Under the pieces are notes generated by a model. That model did no database searches. It was not told the origin of the DNA and was given only the letters and a program-made list of their open reading frames with translations. A DNA stretch of 39,338 nucleotides, taken from positions 1 through 39,338 of the forward strand of contig NZ_JABBPF010000052.1 of NCBI RefSeq assembly GCF_012927415.1, read 5' to 3'. The translations under genes and the position numbers were made by a program. Shown piece after piece: positions 11,436 through 34,508 of the stretch (the stretch's first letter is position 1; every line of letters starts with the position of its first letter). The stretch comes from Polaromonas sp. (lineage in GTDB: Bacteria; Pseudomonadota; Gammaproteobacteria; Burkholderiales; Burkholderiaceae_C).

Positions 11436-11619
11436 GGGTGTCTCCTCAGTACTTTGGTTTTGATGGAAGGCCCCATAGGGGGCCGGACGAAATATTAAAC
11501 TTTCGTAAAGCTTACATGAGTTTTTTGTAAATTCTTGTGAGGGCGATTGGTAGTTTTATTTTTTTGGCCGTCCCGAAGCAAACCGCCAAAAGCCATCACG
11601 CTTCACGCTCACGCACGCA

Positions 11620-12230
11620 GCAAGGCACGATATGGCACTTACCCTTGTGCAACTTGGACCTGCGCATCGAGGCGTCAGGTGTGACCGCGTACACGAGGTC
11701 GTCTATCCCGGCCCTCCCGGCCCAGTACTGGAGAAAGGCTTTGTGCGATCGATGGCGTCTTTCCTGATGCTGCACCAGAGACAAGGCGCCGGTGCCAATC
11801 GGCTGCGGGTCAATTTTCTCCGGCGAGCCGTTTTGAGCATGACATCCGCGTTTTCCTTCGACTGCAGCGCCGTGTGAGGCATGCCCAGGTTGGCCAGGAA
11901 GGAAGCCTCCGGCTAATTGAGCGTGATCCTCGCAGCTTGATCGTTGATTTTTGCCACCGACTGCATCAACCCGGGAATGGCCATGTCGCTACAGCGGGAG
12001 TGATTGAGGCTGGCGATCTTGAAGTAGGCGTTGTCTTTCTTTCACTGGCGCTCGAACATGAACTGCACGTCGTCGTGCATGCATGTTGCGCGTGGGATTG
12101 AATGCGCGTTTTTGTTCCACTTTGAGTTCTTGCGCAGGGCAAAGATGTAATCCTTGCCGTGGGGAAAGATACCGAACTTCCCGGCCAAACCCGGCAACAC
12201 CGCGCAAACTGGCCATCGATAACGCGAAGA
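11620..12230 (-). pseudogene. Decayed fragment of a DppA-type dipeptide-binding protein gene
   Basis: Minus-strand translation in shifting frames recovers a family 5 solute-binding protein: VLPGLAGKFG...GKDYIFALRKNSKWN (from about 12200), then FNPTRNMHA in another frame, DDVQFMFERQ followed by a stop, KKDNAYFKIAS, another stop, PEASFLANLGM, and finally IDDLVYAVTPDASMRRSKLHKGKCHIVP (ending about 11623). These match, in order, the E. coli DppA segments around VIPGLAEKW, YTFHLRKGVKWH, FKPTRDLNADDVVFSFDRQ, RPEAPFLADLAM and FSITPDASVRYAKLQKNECQVMP as I recall them. At least two stops and two frameshifts are present, and both ends of the gene are missing (roughly residues 75-260 of about 535 remain). 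It lies directly after the ABC importer operon, so it may be a lost paralogous binding protein. Confidence 0.85.
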
Positions 12231-12309
12231 AAACACAGGGATGGGTGTTGCGACAGTTTTCACGGCGCTACGCCCGAATGCGGCCGGAAGAAATATCCGT
12301 ATCAACCCG

Positions 12310-12329: not shown

Positions 12330-12692
12330 CTAAAGTGCCTGACCAGGCCTGACTGCGGTGGCAACGATCTCTACCTTCCAGCCTGGATTGGCCAGTTCAA
12401 GTTTGAAGCAATCGCGAGCGGGTGGACTGCCTTTGTCGACCCACTGGTCCCAAGCGGAATTCAGGCCTGCATAATGCCGAAAATCACTCAGATAAATCGT
12501 CGTCGTCAGCAATCTTGACTTGTTGGTTCCGGCGCGCGCCAGCATCACGTCGAGTTTGCGAAGCACTTCAGTGGTTTGCGGTTCGATAGTGGCGTCCAGC
12601 GTGTCCGGCACTTGGCCAGATACAAACACCAACGCTCCGGTGGCGACCATGTCGCACATTCTTTCGTTGGCATCGAATCGCTCAATCGTCAT
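12330..12692 (-). CDS. RidA/YjgF-family protein
   Basis: RidA proteins hydrolyse reactive enamine/imine intermediates released by PLP enzymes. The 120-residue product has the YjgF/YER057c/UK114 fold motifs: VFVSGQVPD, LRKLDVMLARAG, IYLSDFRHYAGLN, and the active-site region PPARDCFKLE (arginine expected to bind the carboxylate) plus VEIVATAV (glutamate). It resembles RidA subgroup members rather than canonical E. coli RidA, since the LxxxDxxxEIEAIA tail is altered. I chose the ATG at 12692 because AAGGAAAG precedes it; an ATG at 12713 touching the upstream stop has no such site. It is the last gene of the array, 21 bases after the ATPase gene. Its presence beside a PLP enzyme suggests it clears imines formed in that pathway. 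Confidence 0.88.
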   Translation of the reverse strand: MTIERFDANERMCDMVATGALVFVSGQVPDTLDATIEPQTTEVLRKLDVMLARAGTNKSRLLTTTIYLSDFRHYAGLNSAWDQWVDKGSPPARDCFKLELANPGWKVEIVATAVRPGQAL

Positions 12693-12713
12693 AAAACTTT
12701 CCTTTATATACAT

Positions 12714-14351
12714 TCAAGTTATTGCGCCCGCCAGACATGCGTCATGTCTGAACCTTCGGCCGGGAATGGCAGCGATGAGTTCGCGGGTATAGGCCTGCTC
12801 GGGCGCACCGCAAATGGCAGCGGCGGGTCCTTGCTCGACAATGCCGCCCGCACGCATCACAACGATGCGATCGCATAAGCCAGACGCCACTCGCAGGTCA
12901 TGGGTGATGAACAGCATGGCCAGCCCAAGCTCTTGCCGGATTTCGCGCAGCAGCGCCAGTACCTGCGCCTGAACCGATACATCCAGGGCCGACACCGCCT
13001 CATCGGCAATCAGCAGCCTGGGTTGCATTGCCAGCGCTCGCGCAATACTGATGCGCTGTCGCTGGCCGCCCGAAAATTGATGCGGAAACCGGCTGAGGGA
13101 ACCAGGAGCGAGGCCAACAATGCGAATTAGTTCAGCGGCGCGGGCATGGGCGACGTCACGCGCGACCCCGGTATTGATCGGTCCGGCGGCAATGATGTTG
13201 CCCACACGGTGCCTCGGATTAAGCGAGGCATAAGGGTCCTGAAACACCATCTGGATCTGCTGGCGCGTAACGCCGAGCTGGCGCCTGCTCAAGCCCACGG
13301 TAGACCTTCCGTCAAACATGATGGATCCACTGTCTGGCTGCAGCAGACCGACCACCACTTTGCCCAACGTGGACTTGCCGGAACCGGACTCACCCACGAC
13401 ACCGACAGTCTCGCCAGCATCGACATGAAGGCTGACGCGGTCCAGGGCAGTGGTCATGCGACCGCCGCGCCCAGCATACTTTTTGCACAGATCGCTGACC
13501 TGAAGCAACGGTGCGCGCTGCACGGGCACACTGTCGGTGTCGGGCCGATCCTTCAGCTCTGGCACCGCGGCAATCAGCTTGCGCGTGTAGGGATGCGCCG
13601 GAGAACGCAGCACATCACCCACGGGACCAGACTCTACACAGCAACCCTGCTGCATCACCAGCACCCGATCGGCAATGTCAGCCACGACACCAAAATCGTG
13701 GGTAATGAACAGAACGCCGATCCCACGCCTGGTTTGCAATTCTCGAATGAGCGTCAGGATTTGCGCTTGGGTTGTCACATCCAGCGCCGTTGTAGGCTCG
13801 TCGGCAATCAACAGCCTCGGCTCCAATGCTAGTGCCATCGCAATCATCACGCGCTGACGCTGCCCCCCGGACAGCTGAAAAGGATAAGCGGACACCACGC
13901 GGGCTGGGTCAGGCAGTTGCACGTCCGTCAGCAACTCAATGGACTTGTCCCGGCGCGCGACTGCGCCCATCGACAGGTGGGCGCCAAAGACCTCTCCAAG
14001 CTGCTGACCAATCGTCATGAGCGGATTCAGCGCCGTCATCGGCTCCTGAAAAATCATACCCACAGCCGCGCCGCGCAACTTGCGCAGTGCCGCTTCGGGC
14101 AAGGCGCTGATCTCGGTATCGCCCAAAAACACTTGGCCCGAGCAATGGCGCACCCCATGCGCCGGCAGAAGACCAATCAGGGAGTGCGCAATCATCGACT
14201 TGCCGGATCCCGACTCCCCCACCACGCACACCGTCTCCCCCGGGTAAATCTCAAACGACACGTTATTGACAACCAGGCGCTGCGGCGTCTGGCCCGTGAT
14301 TTCAACCGATAGAGACTCGAGCCGGGCCACAGGCATGCCGCGCGCGTTCAT
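12714..14351 (-). CDS. Peptide-type ABC transporter, fused two-domain ATPase (DppD-DppF)
   Basis: Cytoplasmic motor of an oligopeptide/dipeptide-family importer. The 545-residue chain carries two complete ABC cassettes. First half: Walker [17 protein letters not shown] (about 45-60), signature [12 protein letters not shown], Walker [14 protein letters not shown]. Second half (from about 275): Walker [17 protein letters not shown], signature [12 protein letters not shown], Walker [14 protein letters not shown]; the Asp-Glu pair is intact in both. The linker after the first cassette contains the oligopeptide-transporter C-terminal region ([17 protein letters not shown]). Separate dppD and dppF genes are common in enteric bacteria; a single fused gene occurs in many proteobacteria. 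It overlaps the upstream permease gene by four bases (ATGA, 14348-14351). Confidence 0.95.
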
Positions 14352-15190
14352 GGTGCTTCCTCCACGGATTGCAGATGGGGGTTGAGCGCATCATTGAGTG
14401 CCTCCCCAATCAGATTGATCGCCAGAACGGTCAGCACGATTGCCAGGCCGGGAAACACACTCATCCACCACGCCATGCGCATCACCGTACGCGACGACCC
14501 GATGATGTAGCCCCAGCTCATCAGGTTGGGATCGCCCAGTCCGAGGAAGCTCAATGCCGACTCAAGGAGAATGGCGGTGGCCACCATCATGGAGCCTGCC
14601 ACGACAATGGGCGACAAGGTATTGGGCAGGATCTCCTTGAAAATGATGGCGATATCTGATCGTCCCGTGAGCCAGGCCGCCTGTACATACTCACGCGAGC
14701 GCATGCTCATGAATTCCGCGCGAACAAGCCTGGCAATCGGCGGCCACGATACCACCGCGATAGCGCCAACGATGGCCTCGATCCTCGGATTAAAAATAGC
14801 CACCAGCACCACCGCCAGCACGAAGCTGGGGATCGTCTGAAAAAACTCGATGAAGCCGACCAGCAAGTGGTCAACCCAGCCGCCTACATAGCCCGCGACC
14901 GCGCCAAGCGTAATGCCGACGGCCAGCGCGGCCACAGTGGATACAACACCGATAAGGAGCGAGACATAGGCGCCGTGCGCAATGCCTGCTGCTACGTCGC
15001 GCCCCAGCATGTCGCTGCCCAGCAGCAAGCCCTCGGTCAACGGAGGCTCAAATGGAGCCCCCACGGTGTCCCATGGGCTGACGGGAAACAGCCAACGCGC
15101 GGTCAACGCCAGCCCGATGACCGCCAGCAGAATTGCCAGGCCCAGCAAGCCGCCCTTGGTCTGCGCATAACGGGTAAAAACACCTTTCAT
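14348..15190 (-). CDS. Peptide-type ABC transporter permease (DppC family)
   Basis: Inner-membrane permease partner of the DppB-type protein. The 280-residue product has about six hydrophobic helices, an N-terminal segment with the usual first helix (GLLGLAILLAVIGLALTARWLF), the GLLLGSDMLGRDVAAGIAHGAYVSLLIG region typical of DppC/OppC, and the EAA loop around ILPNTLSPIVVAGSMM. Start and stop overlap its neighbours by four bases on both sides (15187-15190 and 14348-14351), so dppB-dppC-ATPase are translationally coupled. Substrate cannot be deduced from the permease. Confidence 0.95.
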   Translation of the reverse strand: MKGVFTRYAQTKGGLLGLAILLAVIGLALTARWLFPVSPWDTVGAPFEPPLTEGLLLGSDMLGRDVAAGIAHGAYVSLLIGVVSTVAALAVGITLGAVAGYVGGWVDHLLVGFIEFFQTIPSFVLAVVLVAIFNPRIEAIVGAIAVVSWPPIARLVRAEFMSMRSREYVQAAWLTGRSDIAIIFKEILPNTLSPIVVAGSMMVATAILLESALSFLGLGDPNLMSWGYIIGSSRTVMRMAWWMSVFPGLAIVLTVLAINLIGEALNDALNPHLQSVEEAP

Positions 15191-16158
15191 GACAGCTCAA
15201 TCCTCGGGTCAACATAGGCATAGATGAAATCGGTTAGCAGATTGACGCCGACCACAATAACGGAGATCACAAAGAAGACCCCCAGCAAAACGCCGTAATC
15301 GCGCTGACTGACAGCTTCAAAAGCGAGCCGGCCGACCCCTGGCCAGGCAAAAATGGTCTCCACCACGATAGACCCACCGACCAGCCCACCCGCGTGAATC
15401 CCGGCATAGGTAATAATGGGCAAGAGCGCATTGCGAAGCACGTGGCTGACCAGCACCTGCCGCTCGGGCAGGCCCTTGGCACGCGCGGTCTTGACGAAAT
15501 CGAGCCGACTTACCTCCAGCATTGAGGCTCGTGCCAGGCGCGCATAGATGGCCACATAAAAGAGCGACAGTGTGGCGACAGGCAAGATAGCGTGGCGGGC
15601 AACGTCAAGCACCGCTTGCAAGCCCGTCATGTCGGCACCAATGGAAGAATAGCCATAGGCGGGCAGCCAATTAAGTCCGACAGAAAAGACCAGCACCAGT
15701 AGCAGTCCCGACCAAAAAATGGGGGTTGCATAAAACAGAAGGGCTGCAGCAGAAATGGCAGTATCGGTCCAACTACCGACCCGCCGCGCCGACAGCACTC
15801 CGAGCAGAACCCCCAAAGACACAGACAACACAAAGGCAATTCCCGTCAGCAGCAACGTGGCCGGCAACCGCTCCAGGATCAGCGTTAACACGGGCTGCTG
15901 CTGACGATGCGAGTAGCCGAGGTCGAGGTGCACAAGGTGATTGGCATACACACCCAATTGGGTCGAAAGTGGCTGATCCAGGCCAAACTCCTTCCGCAGT
16001 TGCGCCAGGTAAATTTCATCGGACGCGCCAGACTGCCCCGCCATTACTTGGGCCGGATCGCCAGGCGCCATGCGCACAAGAAAAAAATTGACAACGGCGA
16101 TTAAAGCGATCACCACTACCGCCTTGCCGCATCGGAGCGCCATTGAGCGTATTTTCAC
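15187..16158 (-). CDS. Peptide-type ABC transporter permease (DppB family)
   Basis: The first permease of the importer, 323 residues, about six membrane helices. It shows the DppB/OppB pattern: N-terminal helix then FFLVRMAPGDPAQVMAGQ, a periplasmic loop with LRKEFGLDQPLSTQLGVYANHLVHLDLGYS, and the cytoplasmic EAA region HVLRNALLPIITYAGIHAG followed by VVETIFAWPGVGRLAFEAV. Length fits. It follows the amidohydrolase gene by 58 bases, the largest gap inside this array, so a minor internal promoter is possible. Confidence 0.95.
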   Translation of the reverse strand: MKIRSMALRCGKAVVVIALIAVVNFFLVRMAPGDPAQVMAGQSGASDEIYLAQLRKEFGLDQPLSTQLGVYANHLVHLDLGYSHRQQQPVLTLILERLPATLLLTGIAFVLSVSLGVLLGVLSARRVGSWTDTAISAAALLFYATPIFWSGLLLVLVFSVGLNWLPAYGYSSIGADMTGLQAVLDVARHAILPVATLSLFYVAIYARLARASMLEVSRLDFVKTARAKGLPERQVLVSHVLRNALLPIITYAGIHAGGLVGGSIVVETIFAWPGVGRLAFEAVSQRDYGVLLGVFFVISVIVVGVNLLTDFIYAYVDPRIELS

Positions 16159-16216: not shown

Positions 16217-17242
16217 TTAACAGTGCCCCGAGAGGACGCGCAAGAAGTCGCGCGCAAGACTTCCAAGTTCTTCGTGCAGATAGCCGCCTTCCTGCACGGC
16301 AACACAGGGCAAACCAAGTGCAGAGATAGCCTGCGCCATCGCCATGAAGCCCGCTGTGGATACACGGTGTGCCCCATGCGGGTCCTTTTCATGGGCATCG
16401 AATCCCAGCGATAGCACCAAGGCTTGCGGCGCATAGCTGCGCACGGCCGCCAAAGCGCTGGCCAGGGCACGCATGACCTCCGCATCTCCACTGCCCACCG
16501 GAAAAGGCAGATTAAGGTTGAAACCCAAGCCCTCACCTTCGCCGCATTCGGAAGGCGTTCCGGAGAAGAACGGATAGAACCCGTCGGGGTCTCCATGAAT
16601 GGACGCGAAGAACACATCAGAACGGTCGTAAAAGATGTCCTGTGTGCCATTGCCGTGATGCACGTCCACATCAAGAATGGCCACCCGTTTGAATTGACGA
16701 CGAAGCAGCTGGGCAGCGACGGCTGCATTGTTGAGATAACAAAAGCCACCGGCCTGGGAGCGCGTGGCATGGTGCCCTGGCGGGCGACACAAAGCATAGG
16801 CCGAGGCCGCCCCCCCCATTACCGCCAGCGCCGCATCGGCCGCGCAGCCAGCTGCGGCCAAAGCAGCCTGCCATGTGCCCGCAGCAATGGGGCAAGCCGC
16901 GTCCTGGGTGTAGAAGCCGGCCTGCCCGATAACGCTTTCTGGCCGGTGCCGAAATCGCCCTCCCGGATGCGTGTTGGCCACAATTTCAGCCCCGGCATCA
17001 GGCAGCCGCGCCCACGCCTGGTAAGCCGTTTCGAGGAATCGAACCAATCCTGTATCGTGCACCGCCAGTACGGCGTCAAGGCCCTGGTAGGTTGGGGCGA
17101 CCAGCTCAAACCCCGCGCCACCCAACGCATGGGCGATGGCGTGTGCGCGAGCTGCGGTTTCTGGATTGGGAACAAGCTGACCCGCTTTCAGGAACATAAG
17201 CGGCTGATGCAGCGCATGGACATCGCTGTAAAAAACTTTCAT
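16217..17242 (-). CDS. Acetylpolyamine amidohydrolase / histone deacetylase-like enzyme
   Basis: A zinc amidohydrolase of the arginase/deacetylase superfamily, closest in pattern to bacterial acetylpolyamine amidohydrolases, which remove acetyl or other short acyl groups from amines. The 341-residue product contains RPPGHHA (His157, His158), LDVDVHHGNGTQDIF (Asp193 and His195 as zinc ligands), SLGFDAHEKDP (Asp282, third ligand) and VQEGGY with the catalytic Tyr321, so all expected catalytic residues are present. The N-terminus (MKVFYSDVHALHQP) resembles the Mycoplana enzyme as I recall it. It lies between the binding-protein and permease genes, which argues that its substrate is imported by this ABC system. 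No signal peptide, so it acts in the cytoplasm. Real substrate unknown. Confidence 0.9.
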   Translation of the reverse strand: MKVFYSDVHALHQPLMFLKAGQLVPNPETAARAHAIAHALGGAGFELVAPTYQGLDAVLAVHDTGLVRFLETAYQAWARLPDAGAEIVANTHPGGRFRHRPESVIGQAGFYTQDAACPIAAGTWQAALAAAGCAADAALAVMGGAASAYALCRPPGHHATRSQAGGFCYLNNAAVAAQLLRRQFKRVAILDVDVHHGNGTQDIFYDRSDVFFASIHGDPDGFYPFFSGTPSECGEGEGLGFNLNLPFPVGSGDAEVMRALASALAAVRSYAPQALVLSLGFDAHEKDPHGAHRVSTAGFMAMAQAISALGLPCVAVQEGGYLHEELGSLARDFLRVLSGHC

Positions 17243-17279: not shown

Positions 17280-18863
17280 TCACTTGGCGAGATAAACAGA
17301 ATCGAAACTCTCGTTCACGCCGATTGCCGTGGTCACCAGGTTGCGAACGCGCTTGTTGTAAATCGTCGGGAAATTAATTTCGATCAGCCAGCCCAGAGGC
17401 ACGTCTTCCACCAGAAGCTTTTGAACATCAGCGTAATAACGTTTGCGGTCTTCATCCTTCACAGCCGATGCGGCCTTGGTAAACAGCTCGTCAACATGCT
17501 CATTGCTGTAGCCAGAGGTGTTGGTGTAGGGAATGCCCTTTTTTATGTTGGATGACAGATAGGTGCGCGACACGCCCAGGGCGGGGTCGCCGTATTGGGT
17601 CAAATAGCTCACCAGCATCTCGAAATCCCAGTTCGCCAACCGCTGGGTCCAGCCTGCGGCATCGGTCGATTCGATCACCACGCGCAGTCCTACTTTACCC
17701 AGGGATTGCCGCACGTATTCGCTCAGGCGGTTCCAGGTCTCGCCGTAAGGAAGGCCGACCAGCTTGATGGTGGCACGCACGCCATCCTTGCCCTTTACCA
17801 GCCCCATGTCATCCAGCAGCGCTTCTGCCTTCTTCAGGTCGAGCGGGTAGGGTTTCACATCGGCGCTGTAAAAACGGGTGGCGCTTGACACCGGGCCTGT
17901 AGCCACTTTGGCGTGACCGAACCAGATTTTGTCGCGAATGAAAGTGCGATCCAGCGCATACATCACAGCCTGCCGAAAACGCTTGTCGTCCATGGGCTTG
18001 GAGCGGATGTTGAACTCAATCCACGCCAGCGGAGAGAGAAACTCGTAGCCCTTGTTCGTGACCTCGAATTGAGGCAAAGACTTAAAGCGATTGACGTCGA
18101 ACAGCTCGATATCGCTGAAGCTGGAAACGTCCACTTTTCCGCTTTCAAGCGCCACGGCCCGCGAGGCCGAATCGGGAATGACCTGAAAATAGATGTCATC
18201 AAGATAGGGCAGACCGGGTTTCCAGTAGTTGTCGTTGCGAATCAGATGGATGTATGCGCCTTTCTTCCACTCTTTCAACTTGAACGGCCCGGTTCCAATG
18301 GGGGTCTGGTTAGCCGGGTTGGTTTTGAAGTCGGTACCTTCGTAAATATGACGCGGTACCATGGGCGCGCTGGATACTTCGAAAGACCCCAGGAACGGCG
18401 CAAACGGCTCCTTCAGTTTGAACACAACAGTAGCGGCGTCAGGCGCAGTGACCGATGCCAAATGGCTGAAATTGTTACGCGCGCGGGAATGCACTTCAGG
18501 CAGGAACTTGGACGTTGTGAAAACCACGTCCGCAGCGGTAAAAGGCTTGCCGTCATGCCACTTGACGCCTTCCTGAAGCTTGAACGTGTAGGTGAGGCCG
18601 TCCTCCGAAGACGTCCAGGATTTGGCAAGGCCAGGCTGAGGATTGAGGTTGCTGTCATAAGTCAGCAGGCCCTGGTAGATTTTCCCGCCGATCATCTGCA
18701 CACCACTCAACTGGTTGAGCCCCAGCATCAGTGTAGGAGGCTCGGGGTTGACAATCATGTTGAGCGTGCCGCCTCGCTGCTGCGCAAACGCGGGAACCGC
18801 GCTTGCCGCGACCAGGGCCATGCACATCACACCTCGACCCAGAAAATTTATCATTCGCTTCAT
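17280..18863 (-). CDS. ABC transporter substrate-binding protein, family 5 (peptide/opine type)
   Basis: Periplasmic receptor for the adjacent importer. The 527-residue precursor has a clear signal peptide (MKRMINFLGRGVMCMALVAASAVPAFA, cut before QQ), then the SBP_bac_5 domain: GGTLNMIVNPEPPTL, LAKSWTSSEDGLTYTFKLQEGVKWHDGKPFTAADVVFT, PIGTGPFKLKEWKKG, and DDKRFRQAVMYALDRTFI. Length is normal. It is 35 bases after the kinase gene and 37 before the amidohydrolase gene on the same strand. It is not close to the decayed DppA-like fragment at 11.6-12.2 kb: the matching segments differ, so the two are separate paralogues. Confidence 0.94.
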   Translation of the reverse strand: MKRMINFLGRGVMCMALVAASAVPAFAQQRGGTLNMIVNPEPPTLMLGLNQLSGVQMIGGKIYQGLLTYDSNLNPQPGLAKSWTSSEDGLTYTFKLQEGVKWHDGKPFTAADVVFTTSKFLPEVHSRARNNFSHLASVTAPDAATVVFKLKEPFAPFLGSFEVSSAPMVPRHIYEGTDFKTNPANQTPIGTGPFKLKEWKKGAYIHLIRNDNYWKPGLPYLDDIYFQVIPDSASRAVALESGKVDVSSFSDIELFDVNRFKSLPQFEVTNKGYEFLSPLAWIEFNIRSKPMDDKRFRQAVMYALDRTFIRDKIWFGHAKVATGPVSSATRFYSADVKPYPLDLKKAEALLDDMGLVKGKDGVRATIKLVGLPYGETWNRLSEYVRQSLGKVGLRVVIESTDAAGWTQRLANWDFEMLVSYLTQYGDPALGVSRTYLSSNIKKGIPYTNTSGYSNEHVDELFTKAASAVKDEDRKRYYADVQKLLVEDVPLGWLIEINFPTIYNKRVRNLVTTAIGVNESFDSVYLAK

Positions 18864-18898: not shown

Positions 18899-20011
18899 CT
18901 AAAAAGCTTCACAACGGTAGAAGGCCTTGCTGCGGTAGCCGTTGATGACTTCGACATACCCGGTCATTTCAGCGGCAGCTGCCGTATCGCCCATGTCAGC
19001 AATAAATGGACGACCTGCGAGCGAAATTAACTTCGACGGAGTCGCCAGGACCGACACGCCCTTGCGTCCAACCCGGCGAACCATCTCCGCGCTGAATTGC
19101 TGGTTGCCACGGCCAAAGATATGCCCCTGCCCGCCAATACAAGTCACCAGAATGCGCGACGGCCTGTCCGCCGTGAGTTCGAGCAATGCTGCAGCCGTGG
19201 CGTCATGCAACACCAGCTTGCCGGCGATGTAGGCGTCAACGCTCAACAGGGATGCCTGCCCCTTGAGGGCCTGCTTGACAGCCCAGGTCGTCGAACCCGG
19301 ACCTATCAAGTACATCTTATCCGGCTCCATCGCCTCCACAACGCTGGCCGCCATGGCCTGCGCCTGCACCGCATCGCCCGCCCCTGAACGAACCTTTTTG
19401 CCCTGGAGTAGCCTGGGATCCTCGGGGGACGCGACATAGCCGAACAGGCTGGGCTCAATGCGGCCGCAACGTAAATCACTTTCGTCAAGATCCATCACTT
19501 CGCACTGACGGACGCGGCGCGCATGGGAGCGTAGAAAGCGCACTGCCAACGTGCCAGCAGCAGCGGGTGTGGTGGCAAAAACCCCGGAATACATCTTCAC
19601 TCCCGCAGGAATTCCCAGCACCGGGAAGGCATCGCCGACAGACTCGGCAACGTCGCGAGCCGTACCGTCACCGCCGGCGAACAAGATCAAATCCACCTGC
19701 ATGAGCATCAATCGGCGAGCCAGCGCGGCGGTGTCTTCAGCCGATTCCTTTGCCGGTTTGCGATATACGATCTCGCAGCGCAAGCCCGCGGCACTGGCGG
19801 CGTCCGCCCCCAGCGAACCGGAGCCCGTGATGATGGTCAGCTCCGCGCCAAGTTCCCTTAACGCGCTCAACGCTTGAGTTGCACGCGTGACAGCCTGAGG
19901 CACCACGCCCAGCGCCAGCGCCTGTTCAGCCACGCCGTCACTGCCTCGCAACGCTGCAGGTCCGCCAACACCCGCGAGGGCATTGACAATCAGGCCAACA
20001 CGCAGGCTCAT
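18899..20011 (-). CDS. ATP-NAD/AcoX kinase-like protein (COG3199 type)
   Basis: Member of the ATP-NAD kinase superfamily. The 370-residue product has LRVGLIVNALAGVGGPAAL at the N-terminus, the phosphate-binding motif LILFAGGDGTARDVAE (GGDGT about 113-117), a second glycine-rich loop GIPAGVKMYSGVFATTP, and LIGPGSTTWAVKQALK. This is the architecture of the large NAD-kinase-like/AcoX group, longer than housekeeping NAD kinase, whose real substrates are poorly defined. I chose the ATG at 20011 because it overlaps the stop of the preceding PLP-enzyme gene in ATGA (20008-20011). The coupling suggests it works on the same pathway, either making NADP or phosphorylating another intermediate. Precise reaction unknown. 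Confidence 0.88.
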   Translation of the reverse strand: MSLRVGLIVNALAGVGGPAALRGSDGVAEQALALGVVPQAVTRATQALSALRELGAELTIITGSGSLGADAASAAGLRCEIVYRKPAKESAEDTAALARRLMLMQVDLILFAGGDGTARDVAESVGDAFPVLGIPAGVKMYSGVFATTPAAAGTLAVRFLRSHARRVRQCEVMDLDESDLRCGRIEPSLFGYVASPEDPRLLQGKKVRSGAGDAVQAQAMAASVVEAMEPDKMYLIGPGSTTWAVKQALKGQASLLSVDAYIAGKLVLHDATAAALLELTADRPSRILVTCIGGQGHIFGRGNQQFSAEMVRRVGRKGVSVLATPSKLISLAGRPFIADMGDTAAAAEMTGYVEVINGYRSKAFYRCEAF

Positions 20012-21618
20012 GCGCCCTGCTTCGTCTCTTGGTCGAGAAGCTTGCGCTGGTAGCCGCGCCACGTCATGGCCCATCGTTTGGGATCATCGAGGACTGAACC
20101 ATCAATAGCGTGCACCGGGCAGTTGTGCGGCGCCGAACGCACGATCTCGGGATCGGTGTAGGCCTCATGGGCGATGTGCCGCATGACATCTACGAACTCA
20201 TCCAGATCCGCTTGCGAAAACGACTCGGTGGGCTCGACCGTGGCGGGCTCAGGCACCACGAACGGATGATGGCTGGTCCAGTAGTGCACACCAAAGTCGG
20301 CGGCCCGGATGCCAATTTGATCAGAGCGAATTCCGGTGTCGGCGTGAAGCTTTTCCCAGCTGTAACGAACTTGTTCGATACGCCGCTTACCTGGCGCATA
20401 GGGTGCGCTGAGTCCCGGAATTTTCAACAATTCATGCATCATGTAATTGTTGTTGAGAACAGCGATTTCAGACACTTCCCGCAACCCCTTGGCGCCCAGG
20501 TTCATCACCCAGGCATAGGCGCGCAACACAATGCTGGCAGCGCCCATGAACGCGGACAGTTTGCCGATTGAATCGGGCCCGGCATCTTCGACGCTGTAGC
20601 GACCTTCCCGGAGCATTATTTTGGGAGACGGTAAAAAGCGTTCCAGTGCCTGCGTGACGCACATGGCACCCACAGCAGGGCCCCCACAGGAATGAGGCGT
20701 CGCGAATGTCTTGTGCAAATTGAATTGACACATGTCAAACCCGGCTTCTCGTGCGCGGGTGATTCCCAACAGTCCGTTCGCATTGGCCTGATCGTAGATA
20801 TTCAATCCCCCCGCGGCGCGAACCAGGTCTGTAAACTGGCGAATTTTCTTGTTGAAGATTCCGGTGTCTTCCGGATTGGTGATGATGAGGGCCGCGGTGC
20901 GAGGAGACAGGGCCGCACGCAAAGCCTCCAGATCAGGGAAGCCGTCGGCGTCCGGATATAGAGTAATGACCTTGTAGCCCAGCAAGCGGGCACAGGCTGC
21001 GTCCGACGGATGGGAAAAAATCGTCGTTATTACTTCGTCGCGAACGCCGTAGGTGCCGGCATCTTCCTGATAGGCCCGCAACACGGCGAAATTTCCATAA
21101 ATCGCTTGCGAGCCGCTGCGCGCCTGCAGCGACACCGCATCCATGCCGGATACTTCCATCAGAAGCGCATGAACCTGATGGTACATGTGCAGCAGGCCTT
21201 GCACCGTGTCCACATCCTGCAGCGGATGCAGCTCGGACATCCGGGCATCCCGCGCCAGCTGCTCGTTGACTTTGGGGCTGTATTTAATGGTGCAGGTGCC
21301 TTGCCCTACATCCACGTTCAGGTCTGCTCCCAGCGTTTGCTGTGATAAGCGCAGGTAATGACGCAGAACGCGGTTTTGCGCTATCTCCGGCAGGCGCGGA
21401 GCCTCGATACGCAGCATTCCCGCAGGCAGGCCCGACAACGCCTCGCTGGTCGCAGCGGCGACTTCTGGCTCCAGTTCGGGAACCAGCACGCCGCGCTCGC
21501 CGCGCTGTGACAGCTCGAAAATGACCGGCTCGTCCCAGCGCGCCTGGTGATAGCGGCGCAGATTGGCGCGACCATTCGTGAATCGGGACAAGGATATGTT
21601 GTGCATGGCTTGATTCAT
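20008..21618 (-). CDS. Glycine decarboxylase P-protein-like, PLP-binding subunit (GcvPB-like)
   Basis: Homologue of subunit 2 of two-chain glycine decarboxylase. The 536-residue protein keeps the fold: TCTIKYSPKVNE, LHPLQDVDTVQGLLHMY, and the PLP-lysine motif NLHKTFATPHSCGGPA (Lys303). However, motifs usually near-invariant are changed: the AGAQGE stretch reads RSGSQAIY (167-174), the SAHGTNPA loop reads SHPSDAA, the YDGAN segment reads YDQAN, and GGGGPG reads SCGGPA. This suggests a different substrate or acceptor than glycine and lipoyl H-protein. I chose the ATG at 21618, overlapping the partner stop in ATGA (21615-21618). No gcvT or gcvH is nearby. The 3' end overlaps the kinase gene. Calling it gcvPB would overstate what is known. 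Confidence 0.85.
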   Translation of the reverse strand: MNQAMHNISLSRFTNGRANLRRYHQARWDEPVIFELSQRGERGVLVPELEPEVAAATSEALSGLPAGMLRIEAPRLPEIAQNRVLRHYLRLSQQTLGADLNVDVGQGTCTIKYSPKVNEQLARDARMSELHPLQDVDTVQGLLHMYHQVHALLMEVSGMDAVSLQARSGSQAIYGNFAVLRAYQEDAGTYGVRDEVITTIFSHPSDAACARLLGYKVITLYPDADGFPDLEALRAALSPRTAALIITNPEDTGIFNKKIRQFTDLVRAAGGLNIYDQANANGLLGITRAREAGFDMCQFNLHKTFATPHSCGGPAVGAMCVTQALERFLPSPKIMLREGRYSVEDAGPDSIGKLSAFMGAASIVLRAYAWVMNLGAKGLREVSEIAVLNNNYMMHELLKIPGLSAPYAPGKRRIEQVRYSWEKLHADTGIRSDQIGIRAADFGVHYWTSHHPFVVPEPATVEPTESFSQADLDEFVDVMRHIAHEAYTDPEIVRSAPHNCPVHAIDGSVLDDPKRWAMTWRGYQRKLLDQETKQGA

Positions 21619-23009
21619 TTCTCGAGGATGGTGGCAAGTGCTTCGCACAAGGTGGCGACGTCTTCCTGGCTATGCACTTCGGTAAAGCTGTACAGCGCGC
21701 ACTGACCCAGTGCGGGAAAGGCAATGCTAAGGTCGTGACCGCCAAAAATGCCCTGTTCAAGCAGCGCGCGGTTGATCGTCTTGACCGATTTGCCGCTGGC
21801 ATCGAAGTTCACCACGAACTCCTTGAAGTGCACCTGTTCGGCATGCGGTATGCGTATGCCCGGCACACTGGCCAGCTGCTGTTTGGCATAGGCGTTGCGG
21901 CAGATGATGGTGTGGGCCAGGTCTAGCATGCCCTGCGGGCCCATCAAGGCCATATACACCCCGGCGGTGATACCCCAAAGAGCGGCGGCGGTGCCGACAA
22001 ACTCATTGCCATTTTCTCGCTTGTCAAACGATGTGCGGCTGTAAGCCACGTCACCGAAACCGTACTCGCCCGGCACTTTGGTGGGAGCAATACCGAACAG
22101 CCGCGAAGGGTATTGCATCACCAGGGCCTCGTTGTCATGCGTGCCGATAAAACCACCATGCCCGCCGCCATAGCTCATGTGCATCCCCAGCGACTGGATA
22201 TCGCCGCACACAATATCCGCGCCGTAGGTTGATGGTGGCGCAATCACCCCCAGAGAAGTCGGGTCCACGCCGACCACCAGCAAGGCACCGCAGGCATGAA
22301 CGGCCGCCGCGATGGCCGGTCCGTCCTGAATCACACCCAGATACGATGGGTTGTCAATGAAAAGGCAGGCGACTTCCTCGTTCAGCAGGCTCGCCAGTCG
22401 ACCCATGTCCAGAGTGCCGGTGGCGAGGTCAAAGGGTGCGCGGCGGAACTCGAGGTCGCTGCGGCCATAGTTTTGCATGACCGAATACAGGTCGGGGCTC
22501 ACATGTTCGGCCACCAGCACAACCCGGCGGCCGGTATGACGTCCAGCCATCCGCACGGCCGTGGCCGCGGCTTGATGGCCATCGAACGTCGGAATACTGA
22601 CGACTTCCATCTCCAGCATCTCACCCATCATGCTGGCGTACTCAAACAGCGCCTGAAAACGGCCCGCGTCGTCGTAGGGCTCACCGGCATAGGCCGTAAG
22701 AAACTCGCTGCGACCGTTGACTTCATCGCACACGGCTGGCACGTGGTGCTGGTAGCAGCCGCCGCCAAGAAAGCTGAGCACCTGGTCACAGGAGGTGTTT
22801 TTTGCCAACAGCGACTGCACGTGGCGCTTGAGTCTGTGCTCGGAAAGCAACGGTTCGGGCAGGTTCAGCGGGCGCTGCATGCGCAATTCTGGAGGAATCT
22901 CGGCGTAAAGTTCGTCCATTGAACTTGCGCCTATCGCCGCAAGCATCCTTGCCTTGACCTCGGGAACCGAATTGGGTATGTATGGGTAAACGTGAATCGA
23001 ATTTGTCAT
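21615..23009 (-). CDS. Glycine decarboxylase P-protein-like, small subunit (GcvPA-like)
   Basis: Homologue of subunit 1 of two-chain glycine decarboxylase; pairs with the PLP subunit encoded next. The 464-residue protein starts with the family block YPYIPNSVPEVKARML...IGASSMDELYAEIPPELR and has FLGGGCYQHHVPAV (about 80-93). The motif normally read as YTPYQPEISQGTLQ is here YAGEPYDDAGRFQ (107-119), and SMYDGATA reads PTFDGHQA, so both conserved active-site stretches have diverged. The C-terminal part is ordinary. First gene of the array, 133 bases from the divergent LysR gene. A possible ribosome-binding AAAAGGA lies upstream at somewhat long spacing. Role inferred, not established. Confidence 0.85.
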   Translation of the reverse strand: MTNSIHVYPYIPNSVPEVKARMLAAIGASSMDELYAEIPPELRMQRPLNLPEPLLSEHRLKRHVQSLLAKNTSCDQVLSFLGGGCYQHHVPAVCDEVNGRSEFLTAYAGEPYDDAGRFQALFEYASMMGEMLEMEVVSIPTFDGHQAAATAVRMAGRHTGRRVVLVAEHVSPDLYSVMQNYGRSDLEFRRAPFDLATGTLDMGRLASLLNEEVACLFIDNPSYLGVIQDGPAIAAAVHACGALLVVGVDPTSLGVIAPPSTYGADIVCGDIQSLGMHMSYGGGHGGFIGTHDNEALVMQYPSRLFGIAPTKVPGEYGFGDVAYSRTSFDKRENGNEFVGTAAALWGITAGVYMALMGPQGMLDLAHTIICRNAYAKQQLASVPGIRIPHAEQVHFKEFVVNFDASGKSVKTINRALLEQGIFGGHDLSIAFPALGQCALYSFTEVHSQEDVATLCEALATILEK

Positions 23010-23052: not shown

Positions 23053-23137
23053 GGGATAGGCAAAGTGTCTCGGGATAAGCAACGCACGACAAATGATCAT
23101 TTTTTACGCGTGGGATAAGTTAATCTAATAGACTTAT
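23053..23137. promoter_or_regulatory. LysR-type operator cluster between gcvPA-like and LysR genes
   Basis: A perfect inverted repeat ATAAGT-N11-ACTTAT (23115-23137) has the T-N11-A form of a LysR box. The word GGGATA recurs at 23053, 23072 and 23112, and the last two extend to GGGATAAG exactly 40 bases apart, close to whole helical turns. The cluster fills the 133-base divergent gap and ends six bases before the LysR ATG. Confidence 0.65.
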
Positions 23138-23142
23138 TGCCC

Positions 23143-24048
23143 ATGGCCAACCTCCTGATCAATCTCAATACCCTACGCGCCTTCGAAGCCACCGCTCGCA
23201 AGAACAGCTTCACCCTTGCCGCTCAAGAACTTTGCGTGACACAGGCGGCGGTCAGTCATCAAGTTCGTCAGATTGAAGAAGTCCTGGGCGTCCGCCTGTT
23301 TGAGCGCGCTCACCGGCGCGTCACGCTCACCGATGCCGGTACCCGCGTTTACGGCACGATTTCCAACGCGTTTCGAGACATTGACAGCACACTTCGCGAA
23401 GTACGGGCGCAAGGCGAGGCCAAGATGACCCTCACGGTGCAGGTAACACCGTCGTTTGGTTCACGCTGGCTGGCGCGCCGCCTGCACTGGTTCTGGGCCG
23501 AGTACCCCGAGATTGACCTGCGCATTTATCACGCCTTGCCGCATGAGCAGTATGACGTGCGCCGCGTAGACCTGGCGATTAAATGGGGCCACAAGAGCTG
23601 GGGCTCCCTGCACTCGGAGGTCTTGTTTGAATGCCAGTTGCTACCCGTGTGCTCGCCCCGATACCTGCGCCCGGAACATCCGCTTCGCAAGCCGGAAGAT
23701 CTGCTGCACTATGCCTTGCTGCACGAGGACAGCTATGAGGACTGGTCAGCCTGGTTTCGCGCCGCAGAGGTTTCACAGCCCGTTCCCATGCGCGGGCCCA
23801 TCATCAACGACAGCAATACCCTCATTGAAGCCGCGCTCAACCTGCAAGGCATTGCACTGGGGCGGCTTCCGCTGATACGAGAGCAACTGCAGGAAGGCTT
23901 GCTGGTCAGTCCGTTTGACCTCGCCATCAAATGCGAAGGTGCTTATCACCTCGTCTACGACGAGAAAGTCTCGAACAGCGAAGTTTTCAAGAAATTTCGG
24001 AATTTTCTGATTGAGCAGGCGCGCGCAGGCCTTGTGACCGCGGAGTGA
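23143..24048 (+). CDS. LysR-type regulator, GcvA-like
   Basis: Probable regulator of the divergent nine-gene array. The 301-residue protein has a LysR winged helix (LNTLRAFEATARKNSFTLAAQELCVTQAAVSHQVRQIEEVLGVRLFER) and an effector domain with the GcvA-type features VTPSFGSRWLARRL, DVRRVDLAIKWG, LLPVCSPRYL and LLHEDSYEDW. GcvA controls the glycine cleavage operon in E. coli, so this relationship fits the P-protein homologues next door. I chose ATG at 23143; a TTG two codons earlier is possible. No clear ribosome-binding site, and the candidate operator ends six bases upstream, so it may repress itself. Confidence 0.93.
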   Translation: MANLLINLNTLRAFEATARKNSFTLAAQELCVTQAAVSHQVRQIEEVLGVRLFERAHRRVTLTDAGTRVYGTISNAFRDIDSTLREVRAQGEAKMTLTVQVTPSFGSRWLARRLHWFWAEYPEIDLRIYHALPHEQYDVRRVDLAIKWGHKSWGSLHSEVLFECQLLPVCSPRYLRPEHPLRKPEDLLHYALLHEDSYEDWSAWFRAAEVSQPVPMRGPIINDSNTLIEAALNLQGIALGRLPLIREQLQEGLLVSPFDLAIKCEGAYHLVYDEKVSNSEVFKKFRNFLIEQARAGLVTAE

Positions 24049-24125: not shown

Positions 24126-25649
24126 CTACTTCGCTGTCGGCATTACAAACTCGGCACCCTTGCCGATGCTCTCGGGCCAGCGCTGCATGATCGATTTTTG
24201 TTTGGTGTAAAAACGCACGCCTTCTTCGCCATAAGCGTGCATGTCGCCAAAAAGGCTTTTCTTCCAGCCGCCAAAGCCGTGCCAGGCCATGGGAACCGGA
24301 ATCGGCACGTTGATGCCGACCATGCCGACCTGGATGCGGCGGGAAAATTCGCGCGCCACATGGCCGTCTCGCGTGTAGCAGCTCACCCCATTGCCAAACT
24401 CATGGGCGTTGACCAGTTCGACGGCTTCGGCAAAATCCTTCACGCGCACACAGCCCAGCACCGGGCCGAAAATCTCTTCCTTGTAGATCCGCATATCGGG
24501 CGTGACATGATCAAACAGCGTGCCGCCCATCCAGAAGCCTTCTTCGTGGCCCTTGACGGTGTGGCCGCGCCCATCCACCAGCAGCGTTGCGCCTTCCTTC
24601 ACGCCTTGCTCGATATAGCCAGTGATGCGCTGATGGGCTGCGGCCGTGACGATGGGTCCCATCTCGGCATCCAGCTCGATGCCATTTTTGATCACCAGCG
24701 TTTTGGCTCTGGCCTGCAGCATGGGAATGAGCCTGTCGGCCACGTCGCCCACCAGAACCGCCACCGAAATCGCCATGCAGCGCTCACCCGCCGAGCCGTA
24801 AGCGGCGCCGATCAGGCCATCAACGGCCTGCTCCAGGTCAGCGTCGGGCATGACCACCATATGATTCTTGGCCCCACCCAAAGCCTGCACGCGCTTGCCG
24901 TGATGCGCGCCGGTTTCGTAGATGTAGTTGGCTATCGGCGTCGAGCCGACAAAGGAAACGGCCTTCACATCCGGGTGCACCAGCAATGCATCAACCGCCT
25001 CCTTGTCGCCCTGCACCACGTTGAAAACGCCGTCAGGCAAACCGGCCTGCCTGAGCAACTCGGCCATGAACAGGCTGGCGCTCGGGTCAATCGGGCTAGG
25101 CTTCAAAACAAAGGTGTTGCCCGCAGCAATCGCCACCGGGAACATCCACATCGGCACCATCACCGGGAAGTTGAAGGGCGTAATGCCCGCCACGACGCCG
25201 AGCGGCTGACGCAGCGTCCAGTTGTCAAGGCCGGTACTCACCTGATCGGTAAAGTCCCCCTTGAGCAGTTGCGGAATGCCGCAGGCAAATTCCACGATGT
25301 CGATGCCGCGCGAGACCTCGCCCTGCGCGTCGGTAAACACCTTGCCATGTTCGGCGGTGATCAGGTGCGCCAGCTGGTCCTTGTTCTGGTTGAGCAACTC
25401 CAGAAACTTGAACATCACTCTGGCCCGGCGCAGCGGCGGCGTGTCAGCCCAGGCCGGAAAGGCGGCCTGCGCGGCGGCAACGGCCGCGGCCACGTCAGCC
25501 TCACTACCCAGCGCGACATGGCCTGTAACGGCGCCAGTGGCTGGGTTGAAGACTGGCTGGCTGCGACTGGCGTCGGGGACGCGGGCGCGTCCGTTCAGAT
25601 GGTGGCCAATGGTGATTTGCGTGGCAACTTCGGCAGGCGATGAGAACAT
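24126..25649 (-). CDS. mmsA: CoA-acylating methylmalonate-semialdehyde dehydrogenase
   Basis: MmsA oxidises methylmalonate or malonate semialdehyde with NAD+ and CoA, giving propionyl- or acetyl-CoA with loss of CO2, in valine, beta-alanine and inositol breakdown. The 507-residue protein is an aldehyde dehydrogenase with [51 protein letters not shown] and catalytic Cys291 in [11 protein letters not shown]; the family-specific [12 protein letters not shown] and [19 protein letters not shown] stretches support MmsA over other ALDHs. AGGA precedes the ATG at 25649. Divergent from a LysR gene with a palindrome in between. No other valine-pathway gene is in the window. Confidence 0.93.
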
Positions 25650-31837: not shown

Positions 31838-33031
31838 TCAATCGGCACCCAGCCCCACAGGATTGGGCTGGCGTTTTTCCACCGCATGGCGCAGTAAGGA
31901 GGCGGTGCGGAAAATACCGTGGGCAAACTTGCCGGGAGGCAGCGTGGCGAACAGCGCCATCACCACACCCAGATGCATCGCCAGCAGCGCGGGCAAGGCC
32001 TCGCTGCCGCGCGCGAGCCACAGCGCCAGGCCAGTCAGGCTGGTGAAAAACAGCAGCGCAATAAAGCCCAAGTCCATGGGTTTTTGGGCGCGCACGCCTT
32101 GCTGTGGGTCGCGCCGCAGGTTCAATCTGAACAACGCCGCAGTGCCCAGCAATAGGCTCACACCACCGACTGCGCCCAGCAGCTTGGGCAGGCTCGGCAA
32201 ATCGTAGGGCGCTGTCCAGCCCAACGCGTAGTGGTAAACGGTTGCCAAACTGGTCGCGGCAAAGCACAGCATGAAGCCGTAAAAGGTGAGGTGGTGAGCG
32301 CGCTGGCGTGACAAGCTGTAGGCGTCGCCTTCGTTGTTGCAGCCTTCGCCATGCCCGCCGCCCAAGTATTTGAGCCGCAGTACGTCATGCGTTGCCTCGG
32401 CGGCGGCGGACCGGCTCACAGGCTGGTTTGACGTGGCCGGCGTGACATCGCGCCAGAACCGCCGAACGCCCAGACTCAAGGCCAACACCGCCCAGAGAAA
32501 CACCGGCGCAAACATGGCGACCAGCAGGTTGTGCGGAAACAGGTTGTAGAAGTTACCCTGCAGATCGCCGCCCCACAGCGTGCCGTTGAGCGCCAGCGCC
32601 AGCAACAAAAATATCGCCAGCCCGGCAGCCAGAGCCAGGGTCAAGGTCAAGCCGTTTCGCTGGTAAAGCTTGCCCAAAGCGGCAGGCCAGGCGTAGTCCA
32701 CATAGGTCTGCACTCGCACCAGCGCCATGGCTTGAGGCACATTGACGGCAAACTCGTGCGGCGGCGCGTACTGGCAGGCATGCAGGCAGGCACCGCAGTT
32801 ATGGCACAGATTGGCCAGGTAGTGAATGTCTGCCTTGCCGAACTCAAGCCGCCGCGTCATGGCCGGAAACACCGCACAAAAACCTTCGCAGTAACGGCAG
32901 GCGTTGCAGATCTGCATCTGGCGCGCCACTTCGGCCTCGGGTGCGCTTAAAGCACTCAAGGCCAGACCCGCCACCACATCACCATTGGCCAATGCCACCG
33001 CATCGCGGGTTAAGGCCTCAAGCTGCTGCAT
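31838..33031 (-). CDS. tcuB: Tricarballylate utilisation protein TcuB (CitB-type iron-sulphur membrane protein)
   Basis: TcuB re-oxidises the FADH2 of TcuA and passes electrons to the quinone pool. The 397-residue protein has two cysteine clusters near the N-terminus, [11 protein letters not shown] (about 42-52) and [11 protein letters not shown] (about 76-86), for iron-sulphur centres, followed by about six hydrophobic helices (for example [19 protein letters not shown]) with histidines that could bind haem. I chose the ATG at 33031 because AGGAG precedes it by seven bases; it overlaps the end of tcuA by 14 bases. Its frame is open further upstream but without support. Confidence 0.92.
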
Positions 33032-34427
33032 GAATTGCTCCTGATTCAATAGCTGCCTGGGCAGATTGCGCACCGGCTATGCGGCCAAAAGCTGTACCAA
33101 TCGACATTCCGACACCGGCCGTGTAGCCCTTGCCCAGTACGTTACCGGCCATCATTTCGCCGGCCACAAACATGTTATGGCTCGGCACACCGCCAAAAAA
33201 CACGGCTGTCGTTGCATCGGTTTTCAGGCTCAGATAAGTGAAGGTCACGCCGGGTTTGAGGGCGTAGCCGTAAAACGGTCCCTTGTCCACCGGCCGCGCC
33301 CAATGCGTCTTGGCAGGCACCAGCTGGTCGGTGTGGCAGTCGTCAAGCACTGTGTGGTCGAAGCTTCCGACGCGGCAGGCGGCGTTGTAATTGTTCAGGG
33401 TCTGCATGAATGAGCACTCATCGAGTCCAAGCTTTTGCGCCAGCTCGGGCAGCGAATCAGCCCGGGTGCCGGGAAACACCGGCGGCATGAAGCGGCCTGC
33501 GGCCTTGGCGTCAATGATCGAATAAGCCACTTGCCCCGGCTGCTGCGCCACCAGCCGGCCCCAGATGGCATAGCGCTTGGGCCAAAAGTCTTCGCCCTCG
33601 TCGTAAAAACGCTGGCCTTCGCGGTTGACCACCACGCCGAGCGAGACGCAGTCAATGCGCGTGCAGATGCCGCCGTCATACAGCGGTGCGCGTGCATCAA
33701 TCGCTACCATGTGCGCCTGGGTCGGGTCGCCAATCGTGTCTGCGCCGGCGTCAAGCAAATGTTTGAGCACCACGCCCCGGTTGAAACGGGTGCCGCGAAT
33801 CGCAAAATTATCGGACGGCCATTCACCGCGCTCGTTTTGCCCCCAGGCTTCGCGCAGCCATTCGCGGTTGGACTCGAAGCCGCCAGCCGCCAGCACGCAG
33901 GCTTTGGCGGTGATGCGCTTAGCGCCCACCCAGGCTGCCACAAAGCGGCCATCTTCCAGCTCCAGCCGGTCCACCGGGCTGTCGTAGCGAATCTTGACGC
34001 CGAGCTTTTCTGCGCTGCGGTAATACGCGTTGACCAGCGCTTTGCCGCCGCCCATGAAAAAGGCATTGGTGCGGCTCAGGTGCAAGGTGCCTGACAGCGA
34101 GGGCTGAAAATGCACGCCATGCTGGCGCATCCAGTCGCGGCAGTCGCTGGAGGCGCGAATCGTCAGCCGCGCCAGCGCTTCGTTGGTCTGCCCGCCTGTG
34201 ACCTTGAGCAGGTCTTGCCAGAACTCTTCTTCCGAGTAAGCGCCCGTCAACACATCCTGCGGTGCATCGTGCATGCAGCGCAGGTTGCGCGTGTGGCCCG
34301 AGTTGCCGCCGCGCCATTCGCGCGGTGCGGCTTCCAGCAGCAACACGCTCGCGCCCGCCTCGCGCGCCGTCAAGGCCGCGCACAAGGCTGCATTGCCGCC
34401 TCCGATCACCAGCACATCCACCGTCAC
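33018..34427 (-). CDS. tcuA: FAD-dependent tricarballylate dehydrogenase TcuA
   Basis: TcuA oxidises tricarballylate to cis-aconitate in Salmonella; this protein shows the same fold. From the GTG at 34427 it is 469 residues: FAD-binding [23 protein letters not shown] at the N-terminus, then [22 protein letters not shown], the FAD/substrate domain with [21 protein letters not shown], and C-terminal [17 protein letters not shown] and [13 protein letters not shown] typical of fumarate-reductase-like flavoproteins. GAGG lies five bases before this GTG; another GTG ten codons upstream has none. It overlaps tcuB by 14 bases and follows the LysR gene. Related flavoproteins act on other acids, so tricarballylate is likely rather than proven. 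Confidence 0.9.
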
Positions 34428-34508
34428 AGTCGCCTCTTTTTTGGTCAGAATGGGCACACTTTAGGCCGCTGCGCTTCAAAGCGTAAGGCCCGCGAAGCGA
34501 TGGGGCCA

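Follow-up and report, generated by a model that had tools for sequence, protein, structure and literature searches.

The closest described systems are the acetylpolyamine deacetylases grouped in cluster 4 of PMC11532494. In its available part, this paper gives as determinants an Arg95-Asp163 pair, which makes a salt bridge in the dimer, residue 106, a PIS motif, and the contacts Phe27, Tyr168, and Phe225. The same text links the motifs RPPGHH and EGGY to the cleavage of acetyl groups, as opposed to longer ones, and describes an L2 loop that limits the access of peptides in polyamine enzymes. According to the accessible text of PMC4784309, PA3774 is active on acetyl-lysine substrates but not on acetylpolyamines, hence an APAH name does not guarantee an acetylpolyamine substrate. 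Bacterial enzymes of the HDAC family are nevertheless often called acetylpolyamine amidohydrolases on similarity alone. An HDAC that is found in a conserved operon, with features pointing elsewhere, is thus a testable small-molecule deacetylase with another substrate. Here, we describe such a gene in a stretch of 39,338 nucleotides of Polaromonas sp., which we call the window.

The HDAC gene and its operon

The HDAC gene is part of a minus-strand operon with the gene order GcvPA-like, GcvPB-like, NAD-kinase-like, SBP, HDAC, DppB, DppC, DppDF, and RidA (Table 1). The initial annotation had reported a deacetylase-family gene between binding-protein and permease genes. Its coordinates are exact, with the gene on the minus strand, and the flanking genes are indeed those of the SBP (gap of 37 bp) and dppB (gap of 58 bp), a place that is kept in relatives. 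The importer is a dipeptide-type ABC system, with an SBP_bac_5 protein, two BPD_transp_1 permeases, and two ABC_tran stretches. Domain and NCBIfam models recognized no polyamine-catabolic genes in the operon. A promoter scan gave one weak site, fewer than in shuffled sequences. The MmsA gene (24126-25649) was considered as a member of the pathway and rejected, since relatives do not have its ortholog next to the operon: near the operon in L012/L015 there is only a 30% match to MmsA. Downstream of RidA, on the minus strand at around 11600-12280, there is a sequence that resembles, on inspection by eye, the remnant of another family 5 SBP gene.

Table 1. Genes of the operon and the adjacent regulator, with positions in the window.
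Feature	Position	Strand	Remarks
RidA/L-PSP-type protein	12330..12713	minus	Last gene of the operon; start at 12713 or 12692
Fused DppD-DppF ATPase (DppDF)	12714..14351	minus	Two ABC_tran stretches
DppC-type permease	14348..15190	minus	
DppB-type permease	15187..16158	minus	
HDAC-superfamily amidohydrolase, APAH-like	16217..17242	minus	341 aa; from Pfam domain, structures, tree, and alignment
Family 5 extracellular solute-binding protein (SBP)	17280..18863	minus	SBP_bac_5
NAD-kinase-like protein	18899..20014	minus	NAD_kinase, NAD_kinase_C; ORF extends to 20074, start uncertain
GcvPB-like subunit	20008..21615	minus	Divergent two-subunit P-protein; ORF extends to 21648, start uncertain
GcvPA-like subunit	21615..23009	minus	Divergent P-protein
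LysR-family regulator	23137..24048	plus	Divergently oriented

The HDAC frame is open over its whole length, from an ATG at 17242 to a TAA at 16219-16217. The plus-strand reading of the same interval has a stop inside and does not code for the HDAC. The Pfam profile Hist_deacetyl matches residues 27-336 (E 3.4e-77, 260 bits vs a curated cut-off of 27.9). The best solved relatives are 3MEN, which has the highest score, 3Q9B, 9GKZ, and 6PHR, all with entry names of acetylpolyamine amidohydrolase or aminohydrolase; we take 3MEN to be from Burkholderia and 6PHR from Marinobacter. As initially claimed, the set of zinc and catalytic residues is complete: H157, H158, D193, H195, D282, and Y321 align with H158, H159, D195, H197, D284, and Y323 of 3Q9B, presumably in the superfamily's roles of zinc ligands (Asp, His, Asp), His-His pair, and Tyr. 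The motifs RPPGHH and EGGY are present, and an L2-type loop seems present by eye. The N terminus, MKVFYSDVHALHQPLMFLKAGQ, has no stretch that looks by eye like a signal peptide, which agrees with the initial annotation, and the enzyme is probably cytoplasmic.

To find relatives of the operon, we made a single search of genome contigs with the kinase-like protein as query, which gave 48 loci; operons that combine an HDAC with a strongly deviating kinase would escape it. Five loci hold the operon, or as much of it as the contig contains: Polaromonas KJH.2 (L015, the same locus as L012/G028), Polaromonas OV174 (L016), a Burkholderiales bin (L017), a bin whose contig ends inside the HDAC (L018), and a Ramlibacter bin whose contig starts inside the kinase gene (L034). 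The other 43 have gammaproteobacterial kinase genes (41-50% identity) and lack the operon. The HDAC is adjacent to the SBP gene in all five, and to DppB in all four loci whose contig extends there, with an identity to the window copy of 97% in L016, 88% in L015, 79% in L018 (cut), 73% in L034, and 66% in L017. A LysR gene lies beside the operon in four of the five, the fifth contig being the one that begins inside the kinase gene. RidA is present in L015, L016, and L034, and was not detected in L017. The contig of L018, which is binned as Sulfuriferula, has 88-95% protein identity to the window for the complete operon genes that it holds; mis-binning or a recent transfer may explain this.

The operon is rare: of 101 genomes, four gave a match to the kinase-like protein, counting the window's own and one marginal case, and 11 of the 399 genomes of the family, own included, have a GcvPB-like protein with an E-value of 1e-110 or lower. 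All 13 genomes with variant P-proteins (again with our own) have some HDAC match, which exceeds 51% identity only in G000 and G028.

The HDAC is under purifying selection, with a dN/dS of 0.13 relative to L016 and 0.15 relative to L015, the two Polaromonas copies (dS is saturated for L017 and L034). Since the gene and its place are kept down to 66% identity, with these values of dN/dS and the minus frame conserved in relatives, we ruled out a chance ORF. One could still regard the HDAC as a passenger that is carried in the transporter operon and serves another pathway, because it is less conserved between the window and L015 than any of the other eight operon genes (88.0% vs 91.6-96.6%) and other loci of the window-type P-protein lack it (see below). 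We find this very improbable given the conserved place in five out of five loci, the low dN/dS, and the association of the transporter family with HDACs elsewhere.

This association was assessed in the next-nearest relatives of the SBP within the family, i.e., the 19 stretches that correspond to all matches of 45-56% identity outside G000 and G028, matches of 38-43% identity being outside this set. An HDAC is present in 11 stretches (L159, L163-L168, L171-L173, L177), and none was found in the other eight (L160-L162, L169, L170, L174-L176); the stretches of L159, L170, and L177 are shorter than the rest. The stretches fetched for other genes have no HDAC (0/43, 0/11, and 0/7), but the 43 are gammaproteobacterial and hence not a matched control. 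As the 19 loci share ancestry, these counts indicate a recurrent association rather than many independent events. The initial annotation had stated that it would be refuted if relatives of the array lacked the gene. The outcome was in favor of the annotation: all five other loci of the operon have it, and 11 of the 19 next-nearest transporter relatives have an HDAC of another lineage in the stretch, though eight have none.

In the relative whose genes we typed (L163), this sister operon reads class II aldolase, SBP, DppB, DppC, DppDF, GhrA-like 2-hydroxyacid dehydrogenase, class III aminotransferase, HDAC, and EamA, with the aminotransferase immediately before the HDAC. Four of these loci (L164, L165, L172, L177) have a second HDAC. 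The sister operon thus resembles that of the window in having the same transporter subfamily (SBP at 45-56% identity) and an HDAC in the stretch, but it differs in the HDAC lineage, in gene order, and in having an aminotransferase instead of the P-protein cassette. Plasmid HDACs of 45-51% identity (19 records, of which four regions were examined) are set among other genes, and only one of the four regions, L110, has a similar peptide-type importer nearby (25-45% identity). On two rhizobial plasmids (L107 and L110), HDACs about 50% identical to that of the window adjoin a GNAT acetyltransferase, near an aminotransferase, and L110 additionally has a 3-keto-5-aminohexanoate cleavage protein near the HDAC. 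Catabolism of an acetyl-protected amine is possible in these regions.

Comparison with assayed acetylpolyamine deacetylases

We built a phylogenetic tree with 44 of the 54 collected HDAC sequences, after dropping 10 distant ones and keeping 3 as outgroup, and analyzed residues in an alignment of 41. PA1409 and PA0321 are outside this tree. The enzymes 3Q9B, 6PHR, and 9GKZ form with 10 others a clade of 13 (support 100/99), which includes the HDAC paralogue of the window genome (C189, L002); cluster 4, by the bounds given in the available part of PMC11532494, may be wider than this clade. The five window-operon HDACs make a separate clade (99/99) outside it. 3MEN is outside both: it joins the sister-operon HDACs (support 93/87) through a long branch that was flagged as unsure, and shares with the window HDAC a D..xxCP segment near 114-118. 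The term 3MEN is absent from the available text of PMC11532494 and of PMC4784309.

The residues tell a similar story of separation. Position 17 is Glu in the whole clade of 13 and in none of the 28 other sequences; it is Phe in all five window-operon HDACs. At position 95, these have Gly, Pro, or Thr, while the clade has Arg (9), Lys (3), or Ala (1), and at position 163 they have Ser (3), Asp (1), or Glu (1). The motif at 290-292 is PHG in all five and PIS in all 13, but PIS is also found in 9 of the 11 first HDACs of the sister operon. Position 106, at the end of L2, is Ile or Val in the five; it is Glu in 3Q9B, Asp in 6PHR, His in 9GKZ, and Ala or Val in 8 of the 13 clade members, none of which is among the enzymes assayed in the literature consulted. 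All five have Pro at 27 and Phe at 168; their Tyr at 225 is found likewise in many members of the clade, and Ala117 of the window HDAC replaces the clade's usual residue. Since the determinants vary inside the clade, position 106 most of all, and PIS occurs in the sister operon, none of them is decisive alone. Position 19 is Lys in the five window-operon HDACs and Arg in all 11 first HDACs of the sister operon, and it is never basic in the clade of 13. It is in the N-terminal segment that we took to be the L1 lid of PMC11532494, as described in the part of that paper at hand. Lys19 suggests an acidic group on the substrate, a hint drawn from one aligned loop residue.

On sequence grounds, the window HDAC stands apart from the assayed acetylpolyamine deacetylases. 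This bears on the simplest reading of the locus, in which an ordinary acetylpolyamine amidohydrolase frees the polyamine from imported acetylputrescine, acetylcadaverine, or a similar compound. The names of its nearest solved relatives fit this reading, as do RPPGHH, EGGY, and the L2-type loop seen by eye, which are as in cluster 4 in the accessible text of PMC11532494. Peptide-type importers can also carry varied cations. Yet the HDAC is outside the clade of assayed enzymes; Glu17, Arg95, PIS, and Tyr168 are absent from all five copies, which have Ile or Val at 106 and Asp163 only once; a separate gene of the genome, at C189, belongs to the assayed clade; no polyamine-catabolic gene was recognized in the operon; and the top-scoring structure, 3MEN, is outside the clade and goes without mention in the available parts of the two papers. 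We thus consider this reading unlikely, and the initial suggestion of acetylputrescine, acetylcadaverine, or acetylspermidine as substrates is weakened.

Could the HDAC be instead a lysine (protein) deacetylase regulating the operon's own enzymes? In the available text of PMC11532494, PsApaH also deacetylates some lysine peptides, and PA3774, in that of PMC4784309, acts on acetyl-lysine substrates and leaves acetylpolyamines. The loop said in the former to restrict peptides seems present by eye, however, and the recurrence of separate HDAC lineages with the transporter family, in two operon types, fits better with a transported substrate. A regulatory role is in our view rather improbable.

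The divergent P-protein and its kinase-like partner

The GcvPA-like and GcvPB-like proteins pass the respective NCBIfam cut-offs (472 bits vs 364, and 534 vs 441), and glycine is thus a possible substrate. We compared GcvPB in 17 distinct glycine-type sequences, i.e., 15 split ones, the genome's own GcvP, and Thermus, with 13 window-type sequences. (An initial glycine-type set of 18 counted the genome's GcvP twice, as L007 and L155, and a second-type set of 11 counted G772 twice, as L079 and L106, leaving 10; the GcvPB tree was built without duplicates.) We found 36 columns that are invariant in the former and differ in at least 85% of the latter. They include parts of HGTNPA, DGAN, and PHGGGGPG: the glycine-type HGTNPA, YDGANxN, and HKTFxxPHGGGGPG are replaced by HPSDAA, YDQANANG, and HKTFxTPH[AS]CGGPA in window-type sequences. 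HKTF, which we take to be the PLP-lysine motif, is retained in every aligned GcvPB. In the GcvPB tree, a branch of 2.65 changes per column sets the window type, together with a second type (plasmids, G772, G989, and G996), apart from the rest.

The operon has no GcvH or GcvT gene. The only GcvH match of the genome lies at C40, beside the housekeeping gcvP and with gcvT. As this gcvT-gcvH-gcvP set is elsewhere in the genome, the P-protein of the operon is an extra one, and we rejected it as the housekeeping glycine cleavage enzyme. These results also bear on a reading in which the HDAC cleaves a larger or aromatic amide, or an N-formyl amide, and the cassette takes a glycine-like product, e.g., from an acylglycine. 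A P-protein relative would suit such an amine, and related HDAC-family enzymes hydrolyze dimethoate and propanil (PMC11532494, available part). But the pesticide hydrolases of that text have RPA instead of RPP, and the window HDAC retains the deacetylase-linked RPPGHH; moreover, many glycine-type residues are lost in the P-protein of the operon, and a complete set of glycine cleavage genes exists elsewhere in the genome. This makes the reading as a whole doubtful.

A kinase-like gene is in the stretch in 13 of 13 window-type loci, in 9 of 10 second-type loci, and in none of the 15 split loci of the glycine type, where the stretches span just 3.0-4.4 kb. The protein has no sequence match in the PDB. 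Its structural model has a mean pLDDT of 81 and a pTM of 0.56; the top Foldseek hits by E-value include unrelated periplasmic binding proteins, and diacylglycerol kinases match with a probability of 0.99-1.00 over 140-261 columns, with a TM of at most 0.35.

The cassette of kinase-like and divergent GcvPA/GcvPB genes (18899-23009 on the minus strand of the window; L013, L080-L086, L097-L106) recurs with different transporters, on plasmids and chromosomes, in Alpha- and Betaproteobacteria and in Rhodococcus; a haloarchaeal plasmid has the pair without the kinase. No GcvH or GcvT is annotated beside it where annotation was examined. No HDAC was found in the stretch at the eight other loci with a window-type P-protein (L013, L097-L103), hence it is dispensable for that enzyme. 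In L013, the neighbors are an SDR, a Gfo/Idh, a TIM-barrel isomerase-like protein, and a sugar-type ATPase; by eye, L097 has an SDR and L102 a Gfo/Idh-like protein and an ABC ATPase, and in L098-L101 and L103 an ATPase match lies about as far away. The cassette of Gemmobacter neighbors an APC permease, an SDR, an acyl-CoA synthetase, and an amine oxidase, that of Rhodococcus an APC permease, SDRs, an AMP-binding protein, and an ArgE/DapE deacylase, and the Natronosalvus pair, which has no kinase, a nearby M20 hydrolase. Unrelated amidase or deacylase families (ArgE/DapE, M20, AstE/AspA) lie near the cassette elsewhere (L082 15426-16733, L085 9064-10137, L013 2888-4006), as if other hosts used different enzymes for a deacylation step.

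The GcvPA-like gene of L104 (8227-9602) is split in two tblastn pieces, perhaps by a frameshift. A gene pair that looks by eye like TcuA/TcuB, a name that we assume for the pair, is found at 31838-34457 of the window and near the cassette of G996 (L105 909-3543).

A putative pathway and its relation to known systems

The initial proposal of an enzyme acting on an imported compound is in part retained. That the imported compound is linked to amide hydrolysis finds support, at the level of sequence comparison, in the HDAC kept beside the SBP gene in five of five loci, in purifying selection, and in the HDACs of 11 of the 19 next-nearest transporter loci; an acyl amide is the substrate that we infer. 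We lean, by a modest degree, toward an HDAC that works in the cytoplasm as a zinc amidohydrolase, probably by removing acetyl groups, and that specifically serves the compound imported by SBP-DppB-DppC-DppDF. More tentatively, and with rather less confidence, the GcvPA/GcvPB-like pair and its kinase-like partner may be an uncharacterized catabolic PLP system for a compound other than glycine, to which the HDAC and the importer have been joined for an N-acetylated, perhaps acidic, precursor.

In such a pathway, the importer would bring in an amino compound that is N-acetylated and may carry an acidic group, and the HDAC, judging by its family, would remove the acetyl group in the cytoplasm. The freed amino compound might then go to the PLP-dependent GcvPA/GcvPB for decarboxylation or a related carbon-carbon cleavage, as its family and changed motifs suggest, either together with the housekeeping H-protein or with no H-protein at all. 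RidA could hydrolyze the released imine or enamine, which we take to be the function of its family. For the kinase-like protein, the candidate roles are the supply of NADP and the phosphorylation of an intermediate.

If the P-protein does act on a substrate other than glycine, the HDAC would be the entry step of a new pathway. The operon exposes a family of divergent P-protein homologues that is automatically annotated as glycine dehydrogenase, and the HDAC and the SBP are handles on its substrate. The combination of an HDAC and a divergent P-protein was not found among the literature matches listed, which cover few subscription papers, and their titles and abstract openings gave no relevant paper on the operon or on the P-protein/kinase cassette.

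HDAC-type amidohydrolases in catabolic operons are already known in kind, and what the operon hints at is a breakdown pathway not yet described, as opposed to the usual recycling of polyamines. Its P-protein pair resembles the two-subunit GcvPA/GcvPB of Thermus (1WYT) in being encoded by two adjacent genes and in having HKTF. As for the HDAC, it has the superfamily and catalytic residues of the cluster 4 enzymes (M. ramosa 3Q9B, Pseudomonas 9GKZ, 6PHR, and P. aeruginosa PA1409 and PA0321), and it can be aligned over nearly the full length with enzymes of the 3Q9B type, which have in common with it RPPGHH, EGGY, and, by eye, the L2-type loop.
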